Source: Siphonodentalium dalli (lineage: Eukaryota; Mollusca; Scaphopoda; Gadilida; Siphonodentaliidae). From it: a DNA stretch of 64,000 nt. Position 1 is the stretch's first letter. Every line of letters begins with the position of its first letter. Positions 3,784 through 63,342 of the stretch are shown in pieces. The notes beneath the pieces were generated by a model that worked only from the letters and a program-made list of their open reading frames with translations, was not told where the DNA came from and made no database searches. Made by a program: the position numbers and the translations under genes. The stretch spans positions 200,609,828 through 200,673,827 of the forward strand of contig CP136062.1 in NCBI GenBank assembly GCA_032622095.1, written 5' to 3'.

Positions 3784-4183
3784 TTAACCCTTTACCCAAC
3801 AAACCGGCCAAAACCGGCCAAATAAAGCTTCAATAGCCTAAAATATCTTCGGTCTGTCTCAATAGAACCATACAAATATGGATATCATTGGAACCGGCTC
3901 CTTGACCACATTGTGATAGCTACAGTTATGCCCTGTGCCAATGCATTCTCTTATATATGCGAGTCGACCATAGGTCGCCTCGCATATATAAGAGAATGCA
4001 TTGGCCTAAAAAAAATCTGTTTTTAACACTTTTTACCATTTTTTCTTACATTCTTTAACAATTTTATAATTTTTAATGTGTTAAGCCAATGCATTCTCTT
4101 ATATATGCGAGGCGACCTATGGTCGACTCGCATATATAAGAGAATGCATTGGCACAGGGCTGTTCTGTTGGGTAAAGGTTTAA
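3784..4183 (+). mobile_element. Twin-hairpin TTAA MITE, copy 1
   Basis: TTAA at 3784 and 4180 bounds an element with ends CCCTTTACCCAACA and its near-complement. Two 67-nt hairpins (3938-4004 and 4086-4152), each with a 26-bp arm CCAATGCATTCTCTTATATA..., are reverse complements of each other and are separated by an AT-rich spacer. The TTAA target and CCCTTT end are typical of piggyBac-type elements. Non-autonomous. Confidence 0.92.
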
Positions 4184-5007: not shown

Positions 5008-8000
5008 TAGCTCAACTTACTTTGTAAGTTTGAGCTATTGCCATGGTTTGGCGTCCGTCGTCCGTGTGTGCGTGTGTCCGTCAACAATTTCCTTTGGCGC
5101 GGGCTACAGGTCGTACCTTTGGTCTGATATTTATGAGATTTGTCATGAATGTTGACATTGACATGTAGATGGGAACGAGTCATTTTGGTGTCATTCGGCC
5201 AAAAAACATGGCCACTGGCGGCCATCTTGGATTTCAAAATTCAATCCATTGGCGCGGGCTACAGGTCGTACTGTTCGTCTGATCATCATGAAATTTGTCA
5301 TGGATGTTAATATTGACATGTAGATGGGAACGAGTGATTTTGGGGTCGTTCGGCCAAAAAACATGGCTGCCAGCAGCCATCTTGGATTTTACTCTTTGCA
5401 TGACTAAATCCTTTGGCGCGGGCTACAGGTTGTAGCTTTGGTCGGAACTTCATGAAATTTGTCATGGATGTTAACAATGACATGTAGATGGGAACGAATC
5501 ATTTTGGTGTCGTTCGGTCGAAAAACATGGCTGCCAGCAGCCATTTTGTATTTTACTCTTTGCATGACTAAATCTTTTGGCGCGGGCTACAGGTCGTACC
5601 TTTGGTCCGATGTTTATGAAATTTGTCATGAATGTTGCCATTGACATGTAGATGGGAACGAGTCATTTTGGGGTCATTCGGCAAAAAAACATGGCTGCTG
5701 GCGGCCATCTTGGATTTCAAAATTCAATCCATTGGCGCGGGCTACAGGTCGTACTGTTCGTCTGATCATTACATCATGAAATTTGTCATGGATGTTCATA
5801 TTGACATGTAGATGGGAACGAGTGATTTTGGGGTCGTTTGTTAAAAAAAACGTGGCCACCAACAGCCATCTTGTATTTTACTCTACAGGTCGTACTGTTC
5901 GTCTGATCATCATGAAATATGTCGTAGATGTTAATATTGACATGTAGATGGAAACGAGTGATTTTGGGGTTGTTCGGTCAAAAAACGTGGCTGCCAGCAG
6001 CCATCTTGTATTTTACTCTTTGCATGACTAAATCCTTTGGCGCGGGCTACAGGTCGTAGCTTTGGTTGGAACTTCATGAGATTTGTCATGGATGTTAAAG
6101 GATTTAAACTACAAAACGCAATCGGAAAGCCCTCCCTGTTGTGATTAAAATGATCCAAGTCCCATTCCGATCGCATAATAAATAACCCGTAAAATAAATA
6201 AATAATACCACTACCGGTATTCGGAGATTTCCGTGACTAAACTACGAGTGACGTACTTGTGGGGAGCAAATTAAAAACACAGATTCGGAGCCGGAGTTTA
6301 TTATGCAGACTACGATTATTACGTAATCGTAAGTCAGCCGATACTAAAATGCGGAGTCGTATGTGCGCGTGTGGTGTATAGATTACGTTACGCTTTGGCC
6401 GTTTATCTGGAATAGAAGACAATAACTCTGTGAATACAGTAATTAATAGCGCCTAGAATGGTTGTTGTTTTTGTAGCCATTAATAACATGCCGGTACGTG
6501 TCTGTTTTGGTGAATAGATGGCAGTAATTAGTGTTTGATTGTCTCGCGTATTCACTCAGTGATTTCTAATCACTCAGCGACTATTCATCAGTGTCATTCG
6601 CGAACTTGTTTGCACTCTAAAATGCCACAAAGTGAATAGAAAGAACATTATCTCTCTGGTCATACTTATATAAGAAGCGCCCAAATTTATATAAACACTG
6701 GGCTGAATAATGTTAACTCTATTTAGGCGCTTTTGTTTTGTGTTTGTTTTACTTTCGATATAAATATCCCGAGTATCTGTCATCGCCACATATTCCAAGA
6801 TGCCTAGTAGATGTAGTGTGTTCAGTTGTGGGCGGGCTAGCGATCCATTATTTAGTACCTCCAAAAAGACAACACAATGCGTAATTTAGAACGCTCTTTA
6901 TTGTCTACCGCTTTTGGGAGACGGAAGCATGGACGCTCTTTATATTTAATTGTCACAATACCACATACAAAATCACCCATGACATATCGAAATAAAGCAC
7001 GTTCATAATTGAGAACGCTCTTTATTGTCTACACCGCGACGAAAACATGGACGCTCTTTATTAGAGGCAATCATTGGAGTTTTGCTATGCTAACAATTCA
7101 AAAAAATACTCTCTAGAAAGTCAATATGTGCCATCAAAACGTAAAATAAAACGAACAACAAACACAAACTGAAAAACAATGCCAGGCTAGCCTTCAATTA
7201 AAAAAAATGTCATTATGCCAAACTGCAGCCTAACTAATAATTTTTGTAGTTTCAACAGTCTGTTGTGTATTCGAGTGAATTATTTTGTTTACTCACTTAT
7301 CGATCTTGACTGGAAGGATTTTAGCAAGCTGTTCACAGTCGTGCACTTCTCCACACAAAATGTTTCGTGTGAAGAAACAGACATGAACATTATTATGACG
7401 AATATAAGCCATCATGATACATGTACTAGTACAATAACCACCATCTTTTTAATCACACCCCATTTGTATTTAAAATTGTACGCATATAGCGCACAACGGG
7501 ATGACACTAGTGTGTAAACTATCCTCCGAAATTGGTACCATACAACGAAGAATGAAGTACCGGCATATGGCCAAACTCGTTTTCTTTCAGAAACAGTTAA
7601 ATTTGTTTCGCACGATATTCCGCTCGCTCATTGCATTTCTGCATAAATTAATCTCATTTCAAACAACTTTTATCGCCTCAAAGTGCAGTTTAGCCATCAT
7701 TATTCGTTATATAATCCAACATTCTAGCAAATCCAGTTCATAATTCAGCACATTCAAACAGTTTTATTCCGTAATCGCTATTTATCGTAAAGGCTTAGGT
7801 AATTAACCAGCGTAATTTATCAACTCGTTACGCGATTGGCGGAATTATTTCAAGCTCCACCCACCGCTGTCATCGGTAAGCGTTGATGCAGATGATCGGT
7901 CATGTGATCGCACTCACGTGACTGACTTCGGATATTTCAGCGATTTTTTTAATATCATAATGATAAAAATACTATCTGCTCGATTTTGAATTTTCTTGGC

Positions 8001-8632
8001 GAAATGGGTCTGTTAGACATATATTATTAGTATTATGACGATAAAAAAAATATTTTTTTGACAGACTAATTCCTTTAACAATGACATGTAGATGGGAACG
8101 AGTCATTTTGGGGTCGTTCGACCGAAAAACATGACCGCTGGTGGCCATCTTGGATTTCAAAATTCACATCCATTGGCGCGGCCTACATGTCGTACTGTTC
8201 GTCTGATCATCATGAAATATGTCATAGATGTTAATATTAACATGTAGATGGGAACGAGTGATTTTGGGGTCGTTCGGCCAAAAAAAATGGCCGCCAGCAC
8301 GGTCCAGCAGCCATCTTGGATTTTACTCTTTGCATGACTATATCCTTTGGCGCGGGCTACAGGTCGTAGCTTTGGTCAGATCTTCATGAAATTTGTCATG
8401 GATGTTAACAATGACACGTAGATGGGAACGAGTCATTTCGGGGTCAATTGGCCAAAAAAACATGGCCGCCAGCAGCCATCTTGGATTTCACTCTTTGCAT
8501 GACTAAATCCGTTGGCACAGGTTAGATATTTAAATTAGCACCTTTCCTATTCCTCCATTTACTGTCAACCATTAAATTATTCCCCTACCTAAGTTGAGCT
8601 ATTGTGTCATTGACACTTTCATATTTTATTTT
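5008..8632 (+). repeat. 160-bp tandem-repeat dispersed element (split by an insertion)
   Basis: The head palindrome TAGCTCAACTT...AAGTTTGAGCTA at 5008 is followed by CGTCCGTCGTCCG and then units of about 160 bp (GCGCGGGCTACAGGTCGTA ... GACATGTAGATGGGAACGAG ... GGCCATCTTGGATTT). The tail AAGTTGAGCTATTGTGTCAT is at about 8590-8620. It is interrupted at 6095-8078 by a TTAA insertion. Reading frames inside the units have no known protein similarity. A second copy lies at 28864-30139 and a remnant at 36560-36975. Confidence 0.9.
6095..8078. mobile_element. 2-kb TTAA-flanked element inside the tandem repeat
   Basis: The repeat unit is broken exactly at TTAA: GGATG-TTAA at 6095-6098 resumes as TTAA-CAATGACATG at 8075. 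Neighbouring units read GATGTTAACAATGACATG without a break. The element starts AGGATT and ends AATTCCT, a short inverted repeat. It holds several copies of ACGCTCTTTAT (6893-7060). A short frame at 6800 starts MPSRCSVFSC, resembling the start of a THAP finger, and stops after 29 codons. No transposase was recognised. Confidence 0.88.
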
Positions 8633-11261: not shown

Positions 11262-12450
11262 TAATTATACCCCCTTTAAAAAAAAAAATGGGGGGTATAC
11301 TGTTTTGCACCTGTCCGTCCGTACGTCCGTCCGATGTCTGTTCATGTCATAACTTGAACAGTAGTGCTCCGATCTCAATGAAATTAGGTATGGATGTTCA
11401 CTATTATGAGGACATTAAATAGAGGGTTCCATTGTTTTGTTTGGATTTTCCATTCTAGAGTTATTCATCTTTGTTTATCTGGAAATAGTGGCTTTTTGGT
11501 CCGTCTGGTATCTGTTCATGTTGTAACTTCAACAGTTGTACTGGGATCTCAACCAAATTGGGTGTGGATGTTCACAACTACGACGACATTAAATAGAGGG
11601 TTCCATCGTTTTGTTCAGATTTTCCATTCAAGAGTTATTCATCTTTGTTTATCTCGAAATGTTGGCTAATTTGGTCTGTCTGGTGTCTGTTCATGTTGTA
11701 ATTTCAACAGTTGTGCTGGCATCTCAATGAAATTTTGTATGGATATTGACTACTATGAGGAAATTAAAAAGAGGGTTCCATCGTTTTGTTCGGATTTTCC
11801 ATTCTAGAGTTATACATCTTTGTTCATCTGGAAATGTTGGCTTTTTGGTCCGACTGGTGTCTGTTCATGTCGTAACTTCAACAGTTGTGCTGGGATCTCA
11901 ATGGAATTTGGTATGGATGTTCACTGCTATGAGGACATTCAATAGGGGGTTCTATTGTTCTGTTCCGCTTTTCCATTCTAGAGTTATGCATCTTTGTTCA
12001 TATGGAAATGTTGGCTTTTTGGTCCGTCTGGTGTCTGTTGATGTCGTAACTTCAACAGTTGTACTGGGATCTCAATGGAATTTGGTATGGATGTTCACTG
12101 CTATGAGGACATTCAATAGGGGGTTCCATTGTTCTGTTCCGCTTTTCCATTCTAGAGTTATTTATCTTCGTTTGTCTAGAAATGTTGGCTGTTTGGTCCA
12201 TCCGATGTCTGTTCAGCTCATAACTTCAACAGTAATGCTCAGATTTCAATGAAATTTTGTATGGATGTTCACCACTATGAGGACATTTATTGGCACATTC
12301 AAATGTTTGTTTTGGTTTTTTGTTCTATAGTTATTCATCTTATATGAAAATGCTGATTTCTGGGTCCATAAGTCTTGAGTATAGCCATCATAAGTTATAG
12401 ATGTGCCCACACTAGGCGGTATGCCACGAGGGGGTATGCACCGGACGACA
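11262..12450 (+). repeat. 174-bp tandem-repeat dispersed element
   Basis: The head hairpin TTATACCCCC...GGGGGGTATAC is followed by GTCCGTCCGTACGTCCGTCC and then five to six units with period about 174 bp, starting at 11337, 11511, 11685, 11859 and 12033. Each contains TCTGTTCATG, TGGATGTTCAC and a GTTATTCATCTTTGTT-like string. The open frames of up to 168 codons seen on the plus strand are repeat translations and not genes. A TATGCACC tail lies near 12440. Confidence 0.88.
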
Positions 12451-27000: not shown

Positions 27001-30000
27001 TCGGGCATATATGCAATTATGTTCTGGTCGGAATACCGGCCAGCCGGGTTCATAATGTTAACAAGGTTGTAGGCCGGTAATTAACATCATCATTCCTCCA
27101 GTCAACTGGCAGTCATGTGGTATCACCGTGAATGTTATTGGTTGACATGCAGTATTCGCTGGTAAACTTACTGCGTTAATAGTTTTTACCTGCGATAACC
27201 ATGTAAATTACCACCACATTCATTATGTGACCGAAATAACGGCAAATTCAAATTTATATCTAGAAACTTTTAAACACTTCAGTGTTCGACTGATGCCATT
27301 TTCAATCGCCAAGTATTCAATTCACAAATAACATATCTACACCATCAGGGGTATCTTTATTTTCAAGTTAACTAAACACAACATATTTCAATTAATTAAT
27401 TGTTTACAGTTTATTCAACATACGAAGTTAGTCACCGACCGACATTTGCGATTGCATCATCATTGCAGCTTCACGCCATGCCAGAAATATACAAATTCTC
27501 TGGTATGGTTACAATGCCGACTTTAAAAAAAATGAAATTCATATAAACACAACATTGCATAAAGAATAGTTTCTAACCGGGACTGTGAGGTGGTACCGCT
27601 GTCGGTGGCAGCATGAACATGGTTAAGTACTGTGGTAATACTGGTGGTCAACATTAATCAGATTAATCAGTGCATAGCTGTAAGTAAATAAAATCAGGGA
27701 ACCATAATATGTCCAACTTCACTAAATTTTGTATACTACAAAATATTCCTGATCAACCTGCACCAGCTTTCATCTAGGCCAGATCCACATTATCATCAGT
27801 TAGTACAAATCAGAATACATGTCGCAACATGTGTTATTTGACAATTTGTAATTGCGTCATAACCAGACAGAATCGAACACGTGGCTTTGAGCAATGTCCA
27901 CTTTGATATCTTTCAGATCTACAGTAATGCCCTAATTAATCGACTGCTTAACCACAGCAGAATTCTGCTGTGGTTAAGCAGTCGATGAATTAGGGCATTA
28001 CTGTAAGCTAATATAATTGTCAATGCATCTATCTTTAAAGATAATTATTTTCCTGTGAATTTTTGTTAACTGGTGGTAAGCGTAAGCTGTCAAATAAAAA
28101 TTATCTCGTTTATCATTCCCTGTTGGTTTTATATAGTCGAAGATATACAGGTGATTTCCTTAATCTGGTTCGAGTAGGGAAATATGCTAGAGGGGAAATT
28201 TGGACTACTACACCATGGGGGACAGTACCATGACCGGGACCCACTGACCTTCTAGTGGACACCCTGATTATATTAACTTTTTCACCGTTTCACATATAAC
28301 TGAACCGACACAAACTCTCTCTATTGATACCATAGCAGGAAAATACAATCACGGAATACTCTTTAATGTTCCACACTTCTGTAAAATGGGACCCTTGTTT
28401 ACTTCTTTGGTGATCAATTCTATGACTTTTTCCGAGATACATGTACATACAGAGTGTGTGCTAGTATATACATGTAAGATCCTTCATGTATTTATGAAGC
28501 TAGTTCGGTCAATGCAATGTGACAAAAGTGATATATTAAAGTCCTGATCTGAATATTAAATATTGTGAGTTGTTTTTAATTTTTTTAATGAATTTTTTTG
28601 TCTGAAGATTATAATATGCTTCAATGAATTTTTTTTATTATACCCCCACTTTCGAAGAAAATGGGGGGTATACTGGATTGACTGCGTCTGTCCGTCACAC
28701 TTTCTCCCTCCGTGTGTCGAGCCGTCCGTCCGTCCATCCGTCTGTGCGACCTCATAACACGAACAACTATGAACCGATTTCAATAATTTTTTGTATGCAA
28801 TCTCCTTAGGACCGCCTCTCAGCATGATGCTAATTGCGGTGCGGTGCGGTCCGACTTTCTTTTTAGCTCAACTTTACTTTGTAAAGTTTGAGCTATTGCC
28901 ATGGCTTGGTATCCGTCGTGTGTGTGTGCGTGATTCGTCAACAATTTCCTTTAACACGGGCTACAGTTCGTACCTTTGGTCCGATTATTATGACATGTAG
29001 ATGGGAACGAGTCATTTTGGGGTTATTTCGCAAAAAAAACATGGCCGCCAGTGGCCCGCTTGGATTTCAAAATTCAATCCATTAGCACGGGCTACAGGCC
29101 GTACTGTTTGTCTTATTGTCATGAAATTTGTCATGGATGTTAATATTGACATGTAGATGGGAACGAGTAATTTTGGGGTCATTCGGCCAAAAAACATGGC
29201 CGCTGGCAGCCATCTTAGATTTTACTCTTTGCATGACTAAATCCTTTAGCACGGGCTACAGGTCGTACCTTTGGTCAGATCATCATGAAATTTGTCATGG
29301 ATGTTATCAATTACATCTAAATGGGAACAAGTCATTTTGGGGCCATTCGGCCAAAAAACATGGCCGCCAGCAGCCATCTTGGATTTTATCATGGCTGTTG
29401 AAATTGGAATGTAGATGGGAACGAGTCATTTTGGGGTCATTAGGACAAAAAATATGGCCGCCAGCAGCCATCTTGGATTTTACTCTTTGTATGACTAAAT
29501 CCTTTAGCACGGGCTACAGGTCGTACCTTTAGTCAGATCATCATGAAATTTGTCATGGATATTAACAATGACATATAAATGGGAACGAGTAATTTTGGGG
29601 TCATTCGGCCAAAAAACATGGCCGCCGGCAGCCATCTTAGATTTTACTCTTTGTATGACTAAATCCTTTAGCACAGGCTACAGGTCGTACCTTTAGTCTG
29701 ATCATCATAAAATTTGTCATGGCTGTTGAAATTGGAATATAGATGGGAACGAGTCATTTTGGGGTCATTTGGACAAAAAACATGGCCGCCAGCAGCTATC
29801 TTGGATCATTATGAAATTTGTCTTGACTTTTGACATTGACATGTAGATGGGAATGAGTCATTTTGGGGTTATTCAGCATTAAAACATGGCTGCCAGTGGC
29901 CATCTTGGATTCTAATCTTTGCATGACTAAAGCTATCAAATGTTTTTGAATTGTTGGAAAACATAGCCGCCAGCAACCATCGTAGATTTTACTTTTATAT

Positions 30001-33000: not shown

Positions 33001-36000
33001 CCATTTTATATAGGTACTTCTTTCTTTTCAATAAATGGTGGTACATGTATCTCCCACACACAGCAGCTTTATTACAATTACCAATAGGACATTCATTACC
33101 ATTTTATATAGGTCTATTATATTTATAAAATAAACACAAAATAGAAACTCATAAAAACTAAGTAATCTTCATCATAAAAATTATTTTTGGAACATGAACA
33201 TATTTGGGCATACCTCCCGAAAAAATCTCCCGGATTGACATTTTCAAAACTTAACAGGTCTGCATGACACCCAGCTGTTTTCATTGAAAGTAGGCAGATT
33301 GTACAACATGTTCTGGAAAAAGCTTATTGTTTTTTGGAAGCAGAGAGAGTTTCCCTGAAATATTGCAATACAAGTGAAAATATGCCAGCTCAAACTATTA
33401 TAAAAATAAAGAATCTTGGTTAACCCTTTACCCAACAAACCGGCCAAAACCGGCCAAAAACGGCCAAATAAAGCTGCAACAGCCTAAATTATCTTGGGGG
33501 TCTGTCTCAATAAAACCATACAAATATGGATATCATTGGAACCGGCTCATTGACCACATTGTGATGGTTACAGTTATGCCCTGTGCCAATGCATTCTCTT
33601 ATATATGCGAGTCGACCATAGGTCGCCTCTCATATATAAGAGAATGCATTGGCCTAAAAAAAATCTTTTTTTAACACTTTTTACCATTTTTATAATTTTT
33701 ATTTTTATTTTTATAATTTTTAATGTGTTAAGCCAATGCATTCTCTTATATATGCGAGGCGACCTATGGTCGACTCGCATATATAAGAGAATGCATTGGC
33801 ACAGGGCCGTTCTGTTGGGTAAAGGGTTAAATAGTTTTACCCTTTTACAGGTTCCTGAGTGTGACGAGTTAGCACAAGAATCGGGACAGCTTATCCCTTG
33901 TCTTATTGAACACAAGAACAACATTACCGGCAATTGTAAAACATTCCTCAATAAAATGGCGACTATAGTATTCAGCGATTACCGACTGATATACAAGTTT
34001 GTCGACAAATGTGAACGCAGCATTAAAGAACACAAGTGTGGAAGGATGGCCGTAGATGATCCGGATCTAATGGTATGTTGTTTTTAAAAATAAAAACGCA
34101 GTCATGTTCTTCTGGAATACATGTAATTGCAGTATGTCACACCATGAGAAGAACGTCTTGCTGCCCCCTCTGATGTAATGATGACAAGAATTGTTTCTGC
34201 GACTGTCTGATGAAATCAACATTTGAATCTTCAAGGCAGCTCAGAAATTTATCATGACTAGTAATTATTCCCAATTGTATGGCCCCGTCATTATTGAGGG
34301 ATATGGCTTCAAATATCACTGTTAATTTGATGCAGGTGATTGCTGCGAAAATGGGTTGCACAGAATTGTTGCAATTGTCTCACTATCACTTTTACCTTTC
34401 CTCAATAATTGTTCAATCAAGTGCACCATAATTGCGATATTCAAAGAATAACAGCTGCCGATTGTTAGTTAACAACAAGGTGAATCTAATCATTTTCAGG
34501 ATGAACTACCCAATCGTAATCATATTTGTCACGTTGATCAAAATCATTCAGAAAATTATAATCGGGTTTGGTTGTTTACCAGGGCTTGTGTTATTTCTGT
34601 CCTTTAATCAGGATGACAAATTAAAATAAACACATCTTAATTTGACATAAACCCATGTAAAGAGTAGGGCTGCAACGATGCATCGCAATTTCAATGCATC
34701 ACAATTCTTTCTCTGCATTGCATTGTCAGGATGTTACCACGATGCATCATGATATATGTTTTGAATGGCAGCAGCTTCCTACTCAATCACAGTTGCAGGA
34801 AATTTGTGTCTAAAAACTTGAGAAAAAAAAACATTTCCACAACTATAGTTACTACATAGACTTATGGTACACTATAACTATGGTGGTGGAAATGTTTATT
34901 GTTTCGGGTTTTTTGATACAAATTTACAACAACTGTGCTACCCATGTACTTCACTCTGACTTAACTTAATATTTCCAACCTTTCAACCAACAAGTTTGGG
35001 TACAATCAGATTGTAAAACTGATTGTTTTAGTTGTTCTGTCAATTTATTTGTAACAAATAAATGTAGAAAAATTAGCTTCAAGTTACACATATCTACTGT
35101 GTAGAGCTGTACATCATTCATTAATCTGAAGCGACAATTATCAGGTTCAACTTAAAGTTTGCATCATGATGCTCAATGTATTTTAGAGGAAAATTATGAT
35201 GCGCATCGCTTCGTGAACCTCTGAATATAGTCAGCCCTAACAATGATAGATTAAACAAATATAAGCCTCTTTGTACAGATAGATTTGCTCTTGGGTACAG
35301 TGAAAACTTTCACTATTGTGAAGTGTTGCTCCCTATTATTGGGATGGGGGGGGTATTTATTTATTGATTTATTAATAGGAGGTCATAAATTATATTTTGA
35401 AGACGTGGCATTCCCTGAGAAAGGATCTATGCCTAAATTGTCTCCATATTTTCTTCAGTTTGCACATTCTCAAGGGACAACATTATCCTGTTTGCAAAAC
35501 CATCTGATGAAGCTTGACGATGAATGTAAACTACAAGTTCTTCGCGTCGCCGAGCTGCAGTCTGATGATTATCACCTTGACCGTCCTTTGTACTATGCAT
35601 GCAGAGACGCTCGAGAAATATTGTGTCCACAAGTGGTTCCTGGACATGGGAAGATTTATAAGTGTCTCAAAAAGCATAAAACAGACCAAAAAATGGATGC
35701 TGCGGTAAACATTTTAGTTTTTCTTTTGAGAATGTAGATTTTATGCGCCTGTTTTGAAAAAATGGTCGTATTATGTAAATGGGTTGTCTGTCCGTCCGTT
35801 GTCCATCCGTCATCAATCCGCTTTTGGTTTCCAGATGATAACTTTATATTGAATCGAGTGAACTGAACCAAATTTGGTATGTTCGAATATGGGTTTCGTC
35901 CGCATGAGTTATGTCCCTTTTTCGACTTAGATTTTACCTGATTTGCAGTTTCCGGATGATAACTTTAGATGAATCAAGTGAACTGAACCAAATTTGGTAT

Positions 36001-39000: not shown

Positions 39001-42000
39001 AAGTTCAAAGAGGATGATGATTTGCTCTCCAACAAATGTAGGGTGGAGGTAAAGTATCCGTGATACTTCTCTTGAAAGCCTGTTTATAATTCTTCAAATG
39101 GTTTACTTTAAAATGGCCCACACAATTATGAATAGGTAGGTTATACTAAAATCAACTAGGACAAAATTGTGGGAAATTCTCAAAAGTTTAAATTATTTAA
39201 TAAAATATTTTAATATTAAAGGCGTACTGTACACTAAATCCAGCCAGTTATGGGACCATCTCCTTTTATACTCAACAGAATATGCAATAAATGAATGAAT
39301 TTGAGCCATGGATTAGTGCTAAATACACTCATGTGCTCTACGAATGAGGCAAACAACATGGTAATGATAATGAAAATGATTTTATGGCTTGAGTCATAAA
39401 TTCATTTTCATTATAATTACCATGCTGTTTGCATCGTTGGTAGCAAACATGAGTGTATTTTGCACTAATCCATGGGTCAAATTCATTCATTTGTTGCATA
39501 TATTCTGTGGAGAATAAAAGGAGATGGTCCCATAAATGGACAATTTTTTTTTCATTTACAGTCGAATGTGGGACTCTGTTTGAAGCTATTTTATGTCCAG
39601 AAATTTCTTAAAAGACTGAATGGGCTGTCGGGATTGATTCATCTAGGGATCTGCGAATCGGGGATTTTGCATCGAATCGAATCTCGATATCGAATCTCCT
39701 TCCTGATATCGACATTGAATCGAATCTCGAATCGAATCAGCTAGTGGTTGATATTGTTTACCAGTGTGTATTTCAGTGGCTCATGACAGAAAACTGCAAA
39801 ATTCACTAGATACTATATAACAATGTTAATCTCCTTAAACATTCGTTGGAATTTGTTGGTTTTTTTTGGAAAATCATGACATAAGCAAGTCACCCTCCGT
39901 CTCATGGAGGGTTTGGGATATGTTGCACTGAATTTCTATCTAGCTGTGTCATGGCGAACATGACGCAAGAAGTGACAGTTAAACACTTAAAGACAGTTCA
40001 ATCAATGTATCACAAACCCCGTGGAATGGAAGTCACTTGTCCACATTAATTAATAAAGATAATAAAGGTTTAATTTAATAATTGTTGTAGTCCGATACCA
40101 ATGGTAGTTATCTGTTAAACGGTTCACCCTACAACAGATCAAACACCTACATCACATATTCACAGTAGTTGTCTTCACGGAAGGGATTCCCAGAAAACAG
40201 ACACAAATTACAAGTGTTAAATCTTATCAACAAGATTCAACTAATCGAAACTTGGTGCAACGTGCTTGATTTCCCGGGAAATAGAAACTGAAAGTATGAA
40301 ATTTATAGGAATTCTGCCGGCAGTGTCGCAGATAACTGGTCGCAAATGATGACGTCCATTTAGACCGATTGTTCTAAGGTTTCTCACCGTTTCTGTTCAA
40401 TCTGTGTTTTGTCACTCATAACGGCGGCTGACACTGTATTTTATTCATATAATCAGAATTGGATATCTGGAGTTCTGAACATAAGGTAATCAATTGAGTT
40501 CCGCATCTAGCGATCACGCACCATGTAGACAATTTACATGTCGATACAGATTGCAAATATATGCGGCAATTGATCACAGTTACGAGTTGCGATCGAAGCA
40601 GGCTTGTCAAAGTACCGCCGGTACCAAGGTAGTCGGTACCGGTACCGTTACTGTGTTGGAACCGCGGTACCGGTACTGGTGTTGTATTGTTTATTCCACT
40701 ACATATCACCCATTTAAAAGAGTATATTCTAATGTGGTAATTACTGGTAATGTATGGCACTTTGTGCCAGTTTTTGGTGATTGTTGTGGATGACAAATAC
40801 AACCATGTCAGACTATCCTAATGCACGTATGCCACAGCAGCCACACATACATGTGTGACATACATGCATTAGTACAGTCTGAAATAGTTGTATTTATCAC
40901 CCACAACAATCACCTAAAATGTGCCATAATTTAGGCAGCCTGATAGGTGTTAGAACTTTTATGTTTAGGGCTTCAGGCGCTCAAATACATACATCGGAAA
41001 GATGGGTATATATATATATATATATGGTGAATGACAATTTAAACTGAAATAAATTTTATGTACCTGCAACTGCAAGGCTGCAATCCTCTTATGTAAGTTA
41101 TAATGTAACACACAATGAGTCGATGAGTCACAAGCACAACTGACTAGACTGATGCAATAATTTGTTGACGGGTCACAGGTAACGTGACAGGTCACAGGTG
41201 CCGTCATCAAAGTAATCAAACTCAAAGGAAACACAGAGTGTTCCAGACTTCCGTGCGTTGGCGGCTGTCCGGAAAACTCTGTGTTCCCTTTGATCATTAA
41301 TGTCGACATCCGTCGCCGCGTGCTTGATCCGTTGACACATAGTAGCCTACCATAATGCAAGCGGCAGTTGCGGCACACTTAAAAGAGCAAAGTTCCTTCA
41401 ATTTTAATCGATCTATACTGATCTATTTACTATTTTTGCGAGTACCGAGAACCGTCAGTACTGAGTATCAGAACCGGTACCGTTGAAACGGCCAAGTACC
41501 GCCGGTACCGGTACCGGTACCGGTTGACAAGCCTGGATCGAAGCATATAAATTGCACAATGTACGTCGATTCTGAACGGCATACATTCACAATTACCTAC
41601 GTTGGCTAACTTGGCAACCTTGCGCTTCAATTTTTGTGAGTTCAGGTCATATGGCATGTGTTATTTAGACGCAAAAAACGAGACTACACCAAAGTAACTT
41701 CGATTCGAAAATATCTGAGTCAGCGGACCGATTCAGTGTCGATCTCGAATCGGGTGCCCGATTTCGACATCGAATCGAATCTCGAATATTCGCAGATCCC
41801 TAGATTCATCATCTTTTCATGCAAGTCTGCAATTATTGTGTCTGTCAATTGCAGAATGTGGTCCCCAGAGTGTTAATTTAGTGATGCTATCCTGCACAGC
41901 GGGATAGCATCACCAAATTCACCCTCTGGGGACCTAATTCTGCTTAGGCCTCATCATCTGGGAAGTATCTATAGTCTCAAATTAACATTGTTTTTAGTTA

Positions 42001-45000
42001 CTTTTTCCCTTCTGAGAAGTTTCTATATCCCCTAATTTGCAGAAGATAAAATGCATAATCAAGGTGACTAATGGGTGAACATCACCAGCTTCAACTGGGG
42101 AACTTTAGTCTGATCCAAGGTCTCCCATTGAAATTGAGTACAAAGCAGAATGAGGGTTCCCAGAGGGTGAATTTAGTGATGATAGCCTGCTGTGCGTGGT
42201 AGTGTCACTAAATTCACCCACTGGGGACCTCATTCTGCAAATGACAGACACACTATTTGCAGGCTTGTTTTCATGCCAAATTGGCATAGCCTGTAGGTGC
42301 ACTGCATCCCGAATATCTGAATCCACAAGATCTGTTGGCTCATGATGTATATGTCACAACGACAGAATTCTTAGAAATAGCCATTATCAATTGTAAGAAT
42401 TAATTTTCCATAAACCCCTGGCTTTTGGACCAATATATATTATGACAGCTTATGAGAAAATTTGTTAAGAGATATTTTCATTAGTTGACACATGTGGCAA
42501 AATAAAATTTTGAGCCAAGCGCAAACCCTGATTATAATGCCTCTGGCTGCAAACAATGGGATATCAGGATCTGTCTGTGCGCTCCGAAATCTACATCCAG
42601 TGGGAATTAACATGAATTACTTTTAGCCATTTATTATTGATATTTACAGCTAATGAACCTGATAAAGGAAGCCGATATCAGCACAGACTACAAGATGGAT
42701 GGAGTGTTACAACGAGCCTGCAAACCTGTCGTCGACATCGCATGTAATCACCATGAAGGTCCAGATGATAATCAGTAAGCAACCTATTTGATATGATAAT
42801 AAGCAGAGCATGTAGACTGACCTGCTGTTCAGGGTTAAATGAAAGAATAGCCCATGAGATCCATGTTACACACATTGTCCTTTGCTAATCCACAGACCGT
42901 ATGGGTGTGAATTATGAGTATGCGCCATGGACCATGATATTTCATGGTACAAATCTTCCAAATAATTCAGGTGTAAAATGTCCAAACACCTGGCAAGAAC
43001 CCTAGTACATAATGCCAGAGGTTACAATAGCGCTATACTGTTGACTAAATTTATCACCTAATTAACCCACAAAACCAGCTTCATAATTATTGGTAAGACA
43101 CATGTAATATTAGCGTGTTCGTTGACGTCACGCAATTATTTAAATAACTTGCGATTGCTGAAGTTTATGATTGTTGTTTTCGATGAATACTTCGCGTTTA
43201 TTTGATCATGTGATAAAAGGTATCTCAAACTCGTTCTATTTTATACGTAATTTATCAACCTCGTCCACTAAATTCTATTTGAGCCTTGGGTAAACCTCGG
43301 CTCAAAATCGAATTTAGTGAATTCGGTTGATAAATTACGTATAAAATAGAAACTCATGTGAGATCCTCTATTTATGATATAAAAGGTCATTAACCCTTTA
43401 CCCAACAGAACGGCCCTGTGCCAATGCATTCTCTTATATATGCGAGTCGACCATAGGTCGCCTCGCATATATAAGAGAATGCATTGGCTTAACACATTAA
43501 AAATTAAAAAATTGTTAAAGAATGTAAGAAAAAATGGTAAAAAGTGTTAAAAAAAGATTTTTTTTAGGCCAATGCATTCTCTTATATATGCGAGGCGACC
43601 TATGGTCGACTCGCATATATAAGAGAATGCATTGGCACAGGGCATAACTATAACCATCACAATGTGGTCAATGAGCCGGTTCCAATGATATCCATATTTG
43701 TATGGTTTTATTGAGACAGACCCAAGATATTGTAGGCTGTTGAAGCTTTATTTGGCCGGTTTGTTGGGTAAAGGGTTAAAAAACCTGTGTTCTCAGACAA
43801 TTTTACTCCAAAAATAAGACGAGGTGCATACAAAAATGTTCTGGGTGTTCATAGCTACCTAAAAGGACTTTTGGTCGACCTGCCAGTGCATTACTCATTT
43901 GTTCTAGGTGTAGTGTTCGTTTACCCTGGCATTTGTGTTGACCTAGTTTGACACCCACGTACCTATAACGGTTACATTTAAAAACGAAATTACTGCATAT
44001 GGTGAAGTTTATATAATTTTTCATTCTGTTGTAATCCCAAGATTCAAATAAAAATATGATAGCCATGGAGTTTTAATCTATCTTTAAAGGTACTCAATCC
44101 AATTCGACGGTCCCCATATCATCAGATTCCAACAACAACAACATTTTTTGAAATGCCGCTTCAGTTATCAGAATCGATTAATTGCCCAAAAATAATGCTA
44201 ACCACAGTCAACTATAGTATAAAATTGCCCAAAACCTGTTATTTATCAACGTTTTGTTCAACGAAATTTTGCCAGTTGTCAAATATCTGACACAAAAAAG
44301 CCACTGGATTTTAGAGTAATCGATCTTCATCCGCTATCTGGTCAGATAAGTTCTTCTCGTCGACAGTTTACTGGGCCACTTAAAATTAAAATAATAGATT
44401 TCAAACATCGATATCTGATCACTCCTAGCTTTGATGGGTGGGTTCCTCGACTCAAATAAAATATTTTTTACACCCGAAGCCAAGGAAATAGTAATTTGCC
44501 AGCGCTAATTCGGATTGAGTACTTTTAATGCGTCTCTCTGTGTTATAATTGCAGAATTTTAGATTGTTTAATGGACAAAGTTGACACCAAAGTTATGACT
44601 GACGATTGTGCAGAGAGGTTGATGGAGATACAATATTTCCTGGTTAGAGATTTCAGGTGAGATATACAAAAATATTGATGATACTGGGAAAACTGAACTT
44701 ATTAAATAGTTCCCAGTTTGGTTGACTTGATGAATGGTCTATTTTTCATCTGAAGAGATGTTCAGTAAATTTAAGCAGATGACAGACAGATGAATAAATA
44801 ATAATAATAATATATAGCATTTGTATAGCGCTTCATCCCTGGTGTAGCTCGAAGTGCAGAAATCTTCCTATTCAATGGGGGAAATGTACAGATAATAAGT
44901 TCAATAAATGCATTAAAGATCCTGTGCTAGTTAATTCTCTTATATATGCGAGTCTCCCATGTCCTAAAAATTGTAAGAAACATTTATTTTTTTTAAAATG

Positions 45001-48000
45001 ATAAAAAATTGTTAGGCCAATGCATTCTCTTATATATGCGAGGCGACCTATGGTCGACTCGCATATATAAGAGAATCCATTGGCACAGGGTAAAAAAATG
45101 ACCTATGGTCATTTGTTGCATTTATTATCTGAACAATCCCTAAGGGAACTACTCGTCGATCAGTATTTAGTATATAAATGGTTATTAAGATCAGGGTTGG
45201 TACTGGACCAAAATTTTTGACAAATGAAATTGTATTTGCCAAATCTCAAAATAATTTTCCAAATCTGTTACAAATACAAACAAATTAACCCTTTCATAAT
45301 GGGAGCTGTGCTGGTGCAGCATTAAAGATCCTGTGCTAGTTAATTCTCTTATATATGCGAGTCTCCCATGGTGAGCCTCGCATATATAAGAGAATGCACT
45401 GGCTAACAAGGTCAAGGCAAATATAGTTAGGCCAATGTATTCTATTATATATGTGAGGCTCCATAACGGAGACTCACATATATAATAGAATGCATTGGCA
45501 CCGGGTTATTGCAAAATTTCAGGAAGTTCCAGTCATGGAAGGGTTAAACTCAATATTGATCTGCAACTGGGGTAATAATGTGAAGCACTGAAGGCCCCTT
45601 ATAGTGGGATAAGCACTATATAATCATATTTATTATGCACCTGTTGTAAATCAGTCTGTGCAATTGTTTTTTTTTTTTTGTGGTTTCTGAGTGATAACTT
45701 TATCTTTTGTTTTTCGATCGACTCAAAATTGGCATGTGATGATGACATCTCCCTTTCTTCTCATAATAAGTCCCCATTCAAGATTGATATTGAATTTGTG
45801 CCCAAACTCTTCAGATGTCAGTTTTTGTTTATGTGAATCATTGTAAGCTCCAGCGGTAAATTTGCTTATCGATTATCTATTAGGATTAGCCAGTGCTCTG
45901 CTCTGTTCAATACCATGCTGCATGCTACACCATTTGGTTTCTACATTCACGTCAAAGAATAGTTTTTGGCACACAACATTGTTCTTCTCATTTACAAGTA
46001 ATTAAATCAGTAGAGTTAAGCTTCTGTGTTGCGTCACGAAACTAGAATCCAAATTAAAAAAAAATTCTTGCTGCTTATTGGTGTATAAAAATAGAGTATT
46101 AATTAAGTGAAGGAGACTCCCAGTTTCAATATTTACTCGATATTTGTTCCTTTAACCCTTTACCCAACAGAAGGGCCCTGTGCCAATGCATTCTCTTATA
46201 TATGCGAGTCGACCATAGGTCGCCTCGCATATATAAGAGAATGCATTGGCTTAACACATTACAAATTATAAAATTGTTAAAGAATGTAAGAAAAAATGGT
46301 AAAAAGTGTTAAAAACAGATTTTTTTTAGGCCAATGCATTCTCTTATATATGCGAGGCGACCTATGGTCGACTCGCATATATAAGAGAATGCATTGGCAC
46401 AGGGCTAACTGTAACTATCACAATGTGGTCAAGGAGCCGGTTCCAATGATATCCATATTTGTATGGTTCTATTGAGACAGACCGAAGATATTTTAGGCTG
46501 TTGAAGCTTTATTTGGCCGGTTTGTTGGGTAAAGGGTTAAATCATGATATCAAGGTGTGGGTCCTGATATTGACGAGGATAAAATTGCACACAAAAAAAT
46601 AATTTCATCAGTTCTCACAAATTTTAATTTGTTATAGGCTGGATGATCAGTTATACAGAAAGTGCCGCAAGGATGCTGAGCATTTGTGTAGTGTACAAGG
46701 GGACTGGCTGGAACGCAAAGAACCTGGCGCTGATATCGGTTATATGGTGTTGCCTTGCCTATACAGACATATGGAGTCTGAAGACAAGAATCAACCTGTA
46801 AGATATACTGACACATAATTTGTTAGTTTCTGTATTATATTGTGTTTTATTTTTCATTCCCCATTATAGTGTTAACAAACCTCCAGACGGCTGTTGGCAC
46901 TGGTCGTTTCTTTTTTATTGGATTCTTTAACCATTTGAACCCTGGCTTTCCACAGATATCGACACCCATGACTCTGGGCTCCCAGCCATTTTATACCCTG
47001 TTTTAGATACACATTAGATGTTTGGTGTTGGTAATGTTCTAAAGGCGGCATGTATTCATGGTAAGCCATTAAAATTTTTCGGTGTAGGTTTTGCCAAGTC
47101 ATAACCCCTTAGTAACGGTTGGTGGACAACTATCCAGAATATAGAAAGAAACGCGCAAATGCAGATGAAACATCGTTAATTCCCTTTAGTTAATACACCA
47201 TGTTGTGAAATAAAAGTGACAAACACTCTACTTGCGTTGTAATTTGCTAAGGTGCTATGCGAACAGTTTTGTGGAAACATTTAACCCTTTGAGTGCCAGG
47301 TCTGATTTTTGTATCAAGCCATATACCCTGTGCCAATGCATTCTCTTATATATGCGAGTCGACCATAGGTCGCCTCGCATATATATATATATATAACAAT
47401 TGTTTTGTTTTTTTTAAATTTTTTACAATTTTAATATATTTTATTATATTCTTTAACAGACTTATTGTGTAGGTTTAGGGCCGATAATATCGGCCCCTGG
47501 CACTCAAAGGGTTAATTCCATTATAAAACCTATGGTATTTAGGTCCTATATTTAACATACATGATTTGATTACATGGAATCAAATAAGCAGACTCAGTTC
47601 GCATGGGATCATTTATAATCCCCACACGCGTTCGGGTTTCCCTCGCTCTTCCATAAGTTATATAGGCCTACCTTAATACCTATAATATAGGTGAATTTAT
47701 ATGCTAATAAGTACATTTTGTAATCTAATTGCTATGCTCATGCATTAATATAACAACCCCACACACCGAGTGACCGTTCCAAATTAGTCCACAAAGCTAG
47801 AATATGAGAGGATAATTTATACTATGGTATCATTTCACATAGACCTACATACCAGATACCCAATTACTATCAGAGCACAATACAATACTTGCTCAATTTG
47901 CGTGTACGTTCAATGTATGGTTTATATCATTTCTATATACTTTGCGCATGCGCAAATATACCTATCATAACTATAGATGTTGACTCTTCCATACACATGT

Positions 48001-57000: not shown

Positions 57001-60000
57001 CTCGGCTTACTGTTGTTTTAGGATAATGGCCTTGTTAATTAAGATTTCACCCCGATTTTGAGTTACCGTTGTATAAGGCGCACCAATATTCTGGGCTATA
57101 TATTCAGGTAAAAAAGATGCGACTTATACACCAAAATTTACGGTAATGGTTCCGTGATGACCTGCCCCAGTGACAACAAGATATTGCAAAATTATAATAT
57201 GTACATTTTATGATTATATATCTAACTACAAGTTTGTCATCCTTGTGCTATAAATAAAATACCAAATGACACATATACCTGTGGTCTAAACTATCACTGA
57301 GGCAAGTTATTTGTCACCTGTGTGGGTTATTTCTCTCCATTTGTGTTTCAATTGAGCAAAAAGGGTCAGTTTTGACTGGCAACACAATCAAAAGTGCACG
57401 TATTGTAATATAAGGTTGTCAAAAATCATGTTTAAATAAATGAATGCATTGATAAAATGTAAAAATGTTGTCTCCTTTTTTCTTCTGGCAACGGCGGCCA
57501 TTTTGGATCATTTGCTGCATGACTTCCGTTACAAACTTTTTTATATTATAGCTTCAAACTGCGCATTCCGAAGACAGCTGTTCTTTCATTGTGGCTATGT
57601 TATTTACTAAATTACTGACAATGATGTTTTTGCCAATAGTGATTTGTTCATGTGTCTACGACAAAAATTATTTCTGAGTAAAGAATTTATTTTACTCTCC
57701 ATAACCAATGGATATTGAATTGATAGATGATAATTAGAAAATCTGATGGATCCGGCCAAAGTTTTTACCCTTGATGCTGTTTGTTGTTGAACTTGATAGG
57801 ATTTATTTTATTTATTTGAAACATTTTGTATAAGCCTAATGCATGTCAGTTTTGTGATGTAGTGTAGATAATAATTATTGGGATGATGAAGTGTGAGTTG
57901 TCGTATTTGACAGGCTGCCTTCACATAAGACAATGCGTTAAGAGGCATTGGATTTCAGGATTTAGTCGGAAATATGGCTTGTTGCCATTCATCGGAAAGC
58001 TCTCCCCGAGAGCTTTCCGATGAATGGCAACAAGCCATATTCCGACTAAATCCTGAAAAGTTACACATAATTCTGCTGAGGTTAAGAAGTCGATTACTTA
58101 GAGCATTACAGTAGCTCGCCATGAAAATTACGGAACTTTGAAGTTGCCAACATTGTTCGGCTGTCAAATTATAAACTGAGGTGTCATCCTACAGGTACAT
58201 GTACCTGTCATTGAACTAATCTTATGGCCCACCGTCCACCAGATATTGAATGTGTTTGGACAGTTATACAATAGAGTAAGATGAACATTCTAATAATGCG
58301 TTGATTGGCATTACACATGCAAGCATGAATATAAAATGCAATAATTCTCTTTATGTCTATGGAAATTAACAAGATTCTTATGGACGTATGATTTTTTTCA
58401 ACTTTCTGTCAACACTGTGCAGTGTTGCCTATGGGAAATTATTTGGTTCCATGTAATCTATAATGCAATTTTCTAACTGCAGCCTGAGGAGGAAGATACA
58501 GATGCATTCGACATTCTGGAATGTCTCATTGAGCATAAGCATCACGACGCCATGGGTGATAAGTGTGAATGTGCTGTTGAACATCATCAAATAGTGAGTT
58601 CGCATATTTATTCTATTAGGCCACTGAACAAAGTCAATTTCCCCGTTATTTGATCTGAACCAAAGTTGGTACGTGTGTTTCTCCAAAAATTACAGGCCAT
58701 GTTCAAATATAGGTTCCGCCCAATTATTCTTACAGCTACAGCCCATTTTCAACTTAGAATTTACCCAAACACATTGCATATTAAATATTAAACACATTGC
58801 AAATATGGCTCATATGCATATTGTAGCTTGCCCACACATTTTGTCTTGTTGTGGCTCTTTAAAATGATAGTGCCTTAACACATCAAATTGCATCCTTAAA
58901 TTTCTTTGTGTGTGGTGTGAAGCCTCCGCTGAGGTGATCAGAATGGAATGGCAAAAATCATGCCAAAATTGTTATTTTTATAAAATTTATATCGAAATAG
59001 ACACAAAGCAGCATCATTATTATAAAACGAATTGCATGCAGTGACTATTGTCTGCTGAATCATTGCCGTAGTGAATTTACACTTCGGTGTAATTCAAACA
59101 TTGTGTTCTCTGAAAATGCACAATCGATGTGGTTAGAATTTGTTATAATCTTTGTTAATTGTTACATTGTCCAGTGGAGATAGTGTTTGGATACTAACTT
59201 TTCGGTTTTACTCAACCACAACCCGTAATATGTCATTAACCCTTTCTATACTGAATGGATTCTCGCATTCAGCTATAAAAGTTTCTATTGGAATAGTCTA
59301 TTATTCATTTGGATGGATGTTTACTGTTTAGTTAGCAAAAGCAGATTGGTGGAAAATGTTCTCATAATAAGTTCAACAAATGACTTTTGGCCGTTTGTTG
59401 AAATTATTATGTGAACATTTCCTAAGGGAAATACTTGTCAATGAGCATTTAGTACAGAAAGGGTTATATTCCATCTAATCTAAAAAGTGTTCACTCATTT
59501 GATAGTTCTATCAAGTGTCACCTTATCACAGGCTACTATTGACACAATCCGATTCCGCTTTCCATGTCTCTTCAATGTTTTGTAACTCAAAAATTTGAAG
59601 TGGCAAGTCAGTTTTCTGTTGATATCTAGTTAAGTGTTGGTATCTATATATTAGTATACAGCTTATCAGTTAGTTGTGTTAATCACACATAGCATGTGAT
59701 ATTCCCATTGTTCAAAAATAAGGCAAAGAGCACAAAACTGCACAAAATGTGCACTCCCTTCTCAATGTAAACAAATAATTGAAAACAAATTCATTTTCTG
59801 GCCTTTATGGTGCATAGTATGGACAAAGTAAACTTATTATATATATAATATATCTTACCATACCACCATATAACATCGTGTGCATTCAAAGTTGTTCCAT
59901 GGGCTTCATTTTTGTCCCCCGACGTTTCCGTCGGAGGACTATAGAAATGACCCTCGTCCGTCCGTCCGTCGTACCGTCCGTCCGTCCGTGTGTCCGTGCG

Positions 60001-62157: not shown

Positions 62158-62555
62158 TTAACCCTTTACCCAACAGAAGGGCCCTGTGCCAATGCATTCT
62201 CTTATATATGCGAGTCGACCATAGGTCGCCTCGCATATATAAGAGAATGCATTGGCTTAACACATTAAAAATTATAAAATTGTTAAAGAATGTAAGAAAA
62301 AATGGTAAAAAGTGTTAAATTTTTTTTTTTTTAGGCCTATGCATTCTCTTATATATGCGAGGCGACCTATGGTCGACTCGCATATATAAGAGAATGCATT
62401 GGCACAGGGCATAACTGTAACTATCACAATGTGGTCAAGGAGCCGGTTCCAATGATATCCATATTTGTATGGTTCTATTGAGACAGACCGAAGATATTTT
62501 AGGCTGTTGAAGCTTTATTTGGCCGGTTTTGACGGTTTGTTGGGTAAAGGGTTAA
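62158..62555 (-). mobile_element. Twin-hairpin TTAA MITE, copy 5
   Basis: Reverse orientation, TTAA at both ends, two hairpins. It is inserted 12 bp downstream of the exon O donor, so the donor is followed at once by transposon sequence. Reading on from the exon gives an open frame to a stop at 62268. Confidence 0.93.
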
Positions 62556-62933: not shown

Positions 62934-63342
62934 CTGAATTTAATATGTCTGACAATTGCAGAATGAGGTCCCCAGAGGGTGAAATTAACCATCTGGAGAC
63001 CTCATTCTGTTCAGGCCTTAACTGCTATGGCAGACTTCGGATCAGATTGAAGTTCCTCAGTTGAAGTTTGTGATGTTCACCCCTTAGTCAGCTCCATTAT
63101 ACAGTTTATCTTCTGCAAATTCAGGGATATAGAAACTTAACAGTAGGGAACCAAGTTCCTAAAAACAATGTTGAATTGAGACTATAGATACTTCCCAGAA
63201 GATGAGGCCTAATCAGAATGAGTTCCCCAGAGGGTGAATTTGATGATGCTTGCCCACTGTGTGGGGTAGCATCACTAAATTTACCCTCTGAGGACCTCAT
63301 TCTGCAAAAGTCAGACACACTAAATTTAGGCTTTACCAGGTG
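62934..63342 (-). mobile_element. Second copy of the hairpin-ended MITE
   Basis: Outer ends AAGTCTGAATTTAATATGTC and a near-complement at about 63304-63334. Hairpins with GGTCCCCAGAGGGTGAA and TTACCCTCTGAGGACC lie at the two ends; the left one has lost its centre. The inner segment is the reverse complement of that in 41822-42267. Confidence 0.85.

Follow-up and report, generated by a model that had tools for sequence, protein, structure and literature searches.

A 69-nt hairpin cassette in piggyBac-type MITEs and in MITE families with other ends

The MITE family F1, which has five full copies in the window (the whole 64,000-nt stretch of DNA analyzed here, part of a 2.227-Gb genome in nine contigs), is a short non-autonomous DNA transposon with a TTAA target, a piggyBac-type MITE present in tens of thousands of copies. 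The 69-nt hairpin that it carries twice is a cassette common to MITE families with other ends, namely F3 and F5, both sampled by their ends, and at single loci it also occurs in family F2 and in one F4-like hybrid. Our tentative explanation, to which we give close to an even chance, is that these MITEs are of piggyBac type and carry a hairpin cassette that can be exchanged and is perhaps retained because it aids amplification in cis, a role that we infer.

F1 copies, their hairpins and their ends

All five full copies described in the initial annotation were found. They are 400, 411, 390, 389 and 398 nt in size, copies 1 and 2 lying forward and copies 3–5 inverted (Table 1), and have TTAACCCTTTACCCAACA ends, nine of the ten exact and the tenth with 1 mismatch. 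By chance, as judged from window shuffles, 0.08 matches to this sequence are expected at up to 3 mismatches. Both ends read TTAA-CCCTTTACCCAACA.

Table 1. Positions of the MITEs and hairpins in the window.
Feature	Positions	Strand	Remarks
F1 MITE copy 1	3784..4183	+	400 nt; TTAA ends; 1 mismatch in right end
Hairpin 1 of F1 copy 1	3937..4005	+	69 nt
Hairpin 2 of F1 copy 1	4085..4153	-	reverse complement of hairpin 1
F1 MITE copy 2	33420..33830	+	hairpins 33585-33653, 33732-33800
F1 MITE copy 3	43390..43779	-	hairpins 43420-43488, 43568-43636
F1 MITE copy 4	46152..46540	-	hairpins 46182-46250, 46330-46398
F1 MITE copy 5	62158..62555	-	hairpins 62188-62256, 62335-62403
F2 MITE (TTAACCCTTTCATAATGG / TTAACCCTTCCATGAC ends)	45285..45547	+	two older type B hairpins: 45335-45403, 45431-45499
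F3 MITE (TTAACCCTTTGAGTGCCAGG ends)	47281..47515	+	F1 hairpin; decayed 3' part
Hybrid element	44926..45090	+	full F1-type hairpin with one change at 45016-45084
F4 MITE-like element (TTAACCCTTTCTATACTG ends)	59236..59467	+	no hairpin

Each F1 copy has two hairpins, one the reverse complement of the other, as had been claimed, although each is 69 nt long and not 67; the unit that they share includes an outward-facing CCCTGT. In copy 1 the hairpin has a 27-bp stem, then a 1x1 mismatch, a further 5 bp and a closing triloop. The proposal that the element can fold locally or as one long stem also held for this copy, with folding z-scores of -13.4 and -11.5 for the hairpins and -25 for the alternative single stem. 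The 26-nt stem arm has 26 matches in the window at up to 3 mismatches, where 0 are expected.

With a fold energy of -55 kcal/mol, the hairpin resembles a small-RNA precursor in both size and energy, and the 27-bp stem, transcribed along with introns, might be a source of small RNAs that act in silencing or in a miRNA-like manner. This we consider improbable. The window has no Rfam match at gathering thresholds, silencing would bring the element no advantage, and canonical animal miRNA precursors are unlike a near-perfect stem closed by a triloop. On the other side, F1 copies may be intronic, given a reading frame at window positions 35255-35737 with a Cys_rich_FGFR repeat (E=1.8e-18), as in Golgi apparatus protein 1; the copies may lie in introns of the gene to which this frame belongs. 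MITE-derived small RNAs are known in plants, according to a review (PMC10004981).

Genome-wide, the exact 18-nt F1 end occurs 91,612 times (45,784 + 45,828) and its reversed control 0 times. The exact 26-nt stem arm has 137,002 + 137,078 matches, and the hairpin core, a 25-nt pattern with four free positions, has 128,491 (64,340 + 64,151), all core forms together. Some of these ends and hairpins sit in tandem arrays, so that the counts are not all independent insertions; at 400 nt per end pair, F1 is estimated to occupy about 18 Mb, to an order of magnitude. These numbers support the recent large-scale amplification that had been proposed from the similarity of the window copies. F1 ends followed by C or T (1,002 of 91,612) were considered as a separate set and set aside, as they look like background mutation; along contig C1 the listed places, about 100 in number, lie scattered, and two pairs of them stand close together at MITE size. 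Separately, at about 848–916 kb of C1, seven places spaced evenly, about 11.17 kb apart, have F1 ends and form a large MITE-bearing tandem array. The window itself has diverged tandem repeats with 155–175-bp periods at 5051-6207, 8049-8494, 28952-29911 and 11325-12321, the first three of which are related to each other.

The assignment of F1 to the MITEs follows from its 400-nt consensus, non-coding interior, terminal inverted repeats and high copy number (91,612 exact ends), and we call it piggyBac-type because of its target and end type: the TTAA target is duplicated and the terminal inverted repeats start with CCC, as is typical of the piggyBac superfamily. The TTAA target inferred in the initial annotation was confirmed in that TTAA stands on both sides of 25 of 28 similarity-picked copies and that single-TTAA empty sites were identified for four insertions by comparing joined flanks with unoccupied repeats. 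One of these insertions, since duplicated (L059/L060), has its empty site matched in L005 and L111; the others are L066 (matched in L024), L084 (window position 41834) and L078 (window position 62946). Self-hits were dropped from this comparison and some junctions are paralogous hairpin or duplication matches; those used are L059/L060, L066, L078_737 and L084.

Related piggyBac transposases are present in the genome, but the autonomous partner of F1, which the initial annotation suggested seeking by its ends, was not found among the loci examined. The piggyBac domain (DDE_Tnp_1_7, PF13843) gave 128 matches from 116 scored of 649 first-look candidates, and several of the transposase loci show TTAAC[C/T]CTTT ends, including the F1-like end types TTAACCCTTTATCTGC, TTAACCCTTTCGACGG and TTAACTCTTTACTCCCC. 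The ends of F1 were present at none of the 70 transposase loci examined, a non-exhaustive set from these candidates (30 covered with 1.5 kb on both sides, and 40 covered only upstream of the domain, for about 1.3 kb). The nearest end at any of them, TTAACTCTTTACTCCCCA, agrees with F1 at 14 of 18 positions. Two candidates were rejected: one transposase locus has a hairpin nearby (L150), but the hairpin belongs to an adjacent F2-type MITE and there are no F1 ends, and a 2.4-kb F1 copy (L089) owes its length to a spacer insertion and has a longest reading frame of 104 aa. That 2-kb insertion (C1:6269628-6272033 for the whole locus) has the borders TTAA-AGGA...TCCT-TTAA and is perhaps another TTAA element. 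Among the piggyBac copies with a 562-aa frame, twelve list one internal TGA, and in two more a TGA is joined by a TAG; should the stop position be common to the copies, this would look like the amplification of one that already bore a stop.

One hairpin in families with different ends

Elements with other ends that carry the hairpin were first met in loci taken by the stem arm, and F3 and F5 were then re-sampled by their ends. In these end-based samples the F1 consensus hairpin is identical, at 69 of 69 positions, in F3 and in both hairpins of F5. Both F3 (TTAACCCTTTGAGTGCC) and F5 (TGTGACCCGCC, mostly TA-flanked) hold it in the same orientation as F1, and in the loci compared CCCTGT faces outward and a mostly A+T-rich stretch lies inward. 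The exact F3 ends TTAACCCTTTGAGTGCCAGG occur 14,969 times in the genome and the exact 25-nt F5 ends (TGTGACCCGCCATATCAAATCCAGTCG) 19,005 times. In the literature covered, which took in a minority of subscription journals, we found no report of a hairpin common to several MITE families.

The window also has the same or related hairpins in other-ended elements, at 44934-45084, 45285-45547 and 47281-47515, which the initial annotation had passed over. F2 is known from single loci only (window position 45285, L119, L097 and L150). In the hybrid element, the left 52 nt are identical to F2 and the interior, judged by eye, resembles the F5 core; the right 74 nt of the F4 element are 82% like the flank of this hybrid.

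The cassette, bounded as CCCTGT...ACAGGG, might be a former mobile element that now lives as a hyperparasite nested in other MITEs. Its outer border at CCCTGT is sharp in at least six sequence contexts, and most F5 copies have the complete cassette with TA on both sides, as this would predict; nevertheless, we regard it as highly improbable, given that the cassette borders have no constant target duplication (the outer flank is TA, TG, GG or AG, GA, AA). Among 16 F3 copies, 13 have a full-length hairpin; in the other three the loop, half of the hairpin or the whole of it is missing, one copy each. Two F3 copies without a full hairpin (L170, L171) were considered as pre-insertion forms, which would have favored a nested element, but they retain CCCTGT or half a hairpin and are therefore taken to be secondary losses. 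The 11 F5 loci with flanks have TA on both sides in eight (two being a duplicated pair), AA/AA in two and AA/TT in one. One F5 copy (L169) lies within a hairpin arm, and joining its flanks over one TA restores the arm with one difference.

The hairpins fall into two types by their loop stems, CGACC/GGTCG in type A and CTCCC/GGGAG in type B, which differ by two paired replacements. We infer from its more varied copies that type B is the older. In 14 hairpins chosen for diversity, 8 pairs have changed on both sides, a number reached in 0 of 500 shuffles, and the 1x1 mismatch is retained in 13. The exact type B 21-mer occurs 10,119 times genome-wide; mixed loop stems occur 53 times with the type A 5' side and the type B 3' side and 26 times in the reverse combination, and there are none among the 217 hairpins collected (a few counted twice, L001 being a window copy). 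These counts may reflect descent as well as constraint, since the paired change may have happened once and the rarity of mixed forms may merely mean that two old lineages seldom recombine. In a further locus, L124 (positions 1-701; C1:544200-544900), about seven type B-like hairpins stand head-to-tail with a 97-bp period, the first one cut by the locus end.

Constancy of the stems within families

The initial annotation held that the hairpins are preserved better than the spacer. Among 32 similarity-picked or window copies of F1, differences from the consensus number 8/4,416 in the hairpins, 45/4,299 in the left part and 32/2,526 in the spacer. A fairer sample of 37 rows joins the five window copies to 32 copies taken by position on C1, chosen on no feature but their exact ends; L089 is omitted, as are L090-L097, eight loci that lack a paired exact end. 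A set of 26 clean rows remains once the duplicate L088 and ten copies whose hairpins are rearranged or misaligned are removed as well. Loci picked by an exact stem arm were kept out of all divergence counts.

Substitutions private to one copy are about as frequent in the F1 stems as elsewhere (32/4783 vs 65/8014, p=0.40; clean rows, 21/3,588 vs 52/5,656, p=0.09). Variants common to at least three copies, on the other hand, are found at 0 of 138 stem sites and at 25 of 226 others (p=5e-6) in the 37 rows, and at 0/138 vs 12/226 in the clean rows (p=0.004). Leaving aside the repeat-rich left end and the spacer, the corresponding values are 0/138 vs 9/125 (p=0.001) and 0/138 vs 6/125 (p=0.011). 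With variants in at least two copies, the 37 rows give 11/138 stem sites vs 38/226 (p=0.018), or vs 12/125 once repeats and spacer are left aside (p=0.67). Of these 11 stem sites, nine lie in an arm misaligned in L063 and L087, and a duplicated pair accounts for the other two. In the clean rows the same threshold gives 1/138 vs 22/226 (p=0.0002), or vs 9/125 outside repeats and spacer (p=0.008).

In F3 (L170, L171 and L176 omitted), private changes in the stems (7/874) are close to those in the rest outside the T-rich spacer (9/1,144), and the T-rich spacer is far above both (16/590). In F5, omitting the arm-selected L128, L133 and L137 and the duplicate L160 of L159, private changes are fewer in the stems (18/1303 vs 69/2509, p=0.008), and shared-variant sites number 0 of 138 in the hairpin and 8 of 267 elsewhere (p=0.055). 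Better preservation thus holds for variants shared between F1 copies and for private changes in F5, and not for private mutations in F1 or in the non-T-rich part of F3; given these even private rates, the role in mobilization raised in the initial annotation is at most hinted at.

Even private rates together with the lack of shared stem variants suggest stems that are constant in the lineages that amplify and not protected after insertion. On the simplest view, decay is about even along a copy once it has inserted, and the copies that multiply carry the consensus hairpin. F5 fits less well, as its lower private rate in stems calls for more than selection on source copies, a misfit that may stem from poor alignment of T-rich parts. 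Several F1 copies have truncations within the hairpin; like the three incomplete F3 hairpins, these would speak against a role of the hairpin in amplification if such copies can still move. Gene conversion between arms was considered as the keeper of the stems and rejected: hairpin mutations seen in a single copy mostly lack a counterpart in the other arm, so that such conversion is not efficient after insertion.

It is also a distinct possibility, although one we would not expect to hold, that the hairpin has no function and is a common internal piece swapped among MITEs by recombination or template switching and recently amplified, its constancy being due to recent descent, gene conversion or sampling. 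The nearly equal private rates in F1 and F3 fit this, as do the hybrid element (here 44926-45090) and the tendency of palindromes to promote template switching; moreover, the constancy of the stems is based on 37 copies and varies with threshold and alignment. Against it stand the distribution of shared variants in F1 (0/138 stem sites vs 25/226), the unmirrored single-copy mutations, which speak against efficient conversion, and the paired replacements that separate types A and B (13 of 14 hairpins still have the mismatch, and mixed forms number 53 and 26).

Proposed exchange of the cassette and comparison with known systems

Under the explanation that we tentatively favor, an exchangeable cassette perhaps kept for amplification in cis, copies with an intact hairpin would be those that amplify. 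The hairpin would act in cis, either extruded as DNA or serving as a binding site, in mobilization or re-replication, and its effect would be independent of the terminal sequence; recombination or template switching at palindromes would carry cassettes from one family to another. Cis amplification is perhaps the reason for the reuse of the hairpin across families, the identity of which could also come from recent capture. Since the ends and target of F5 are not those of F1, it is difficult to argue for direct contact of the hairpin with a single transposase, and MITEs targeting TTAA and TA would probably be served by different transposases. A wider proposal, which we think rather unlikely, is that the 69-nt hairpin is a general amplification module, acquired by exchange by both TTAA- and TA-targeting MITEs and keeping them amplifying, so that the hairpin and not the ends would be the unit of success. 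MITEs are usually explained through their ends, which transposases recognize; if the proposal is true, internal DNA or RNA structure contributes to their success across differing ends and target sites. The roughly 128,000 hairpin cores offer a natural series of intact, half and lost hairpins for testing.

F1 resembles the TTAA MITEs of the piggyBac superfamily in its target and target duplication, CCC-starting ends, short non-coding interior and very high copy number, and in the presence of related DDE_Tnp_1_7 transposases in the genome. Unlike them, it has two subterminal near-perfect hairpins of 69 nt, which recur in families whose ends differ. With MITEs that yield miRNAs or siRNAs, as described in the plant review (PMC10004981), it has in common short inverted repeats and precursor-like hairpins; here, however, the hairpin is a separate internal module, not formed by the pairing of terminal repeats, and is known from DNA alone. 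F5, likened by its flanks and ends alone, is similar to TA-flanked MITEs of the Tc1/mariner type in its long terminal inverted repeats and in having TA on both sides at 8 of 11 loci, and differs from them in carrying the hairpin cassette of TTAA MITEs.
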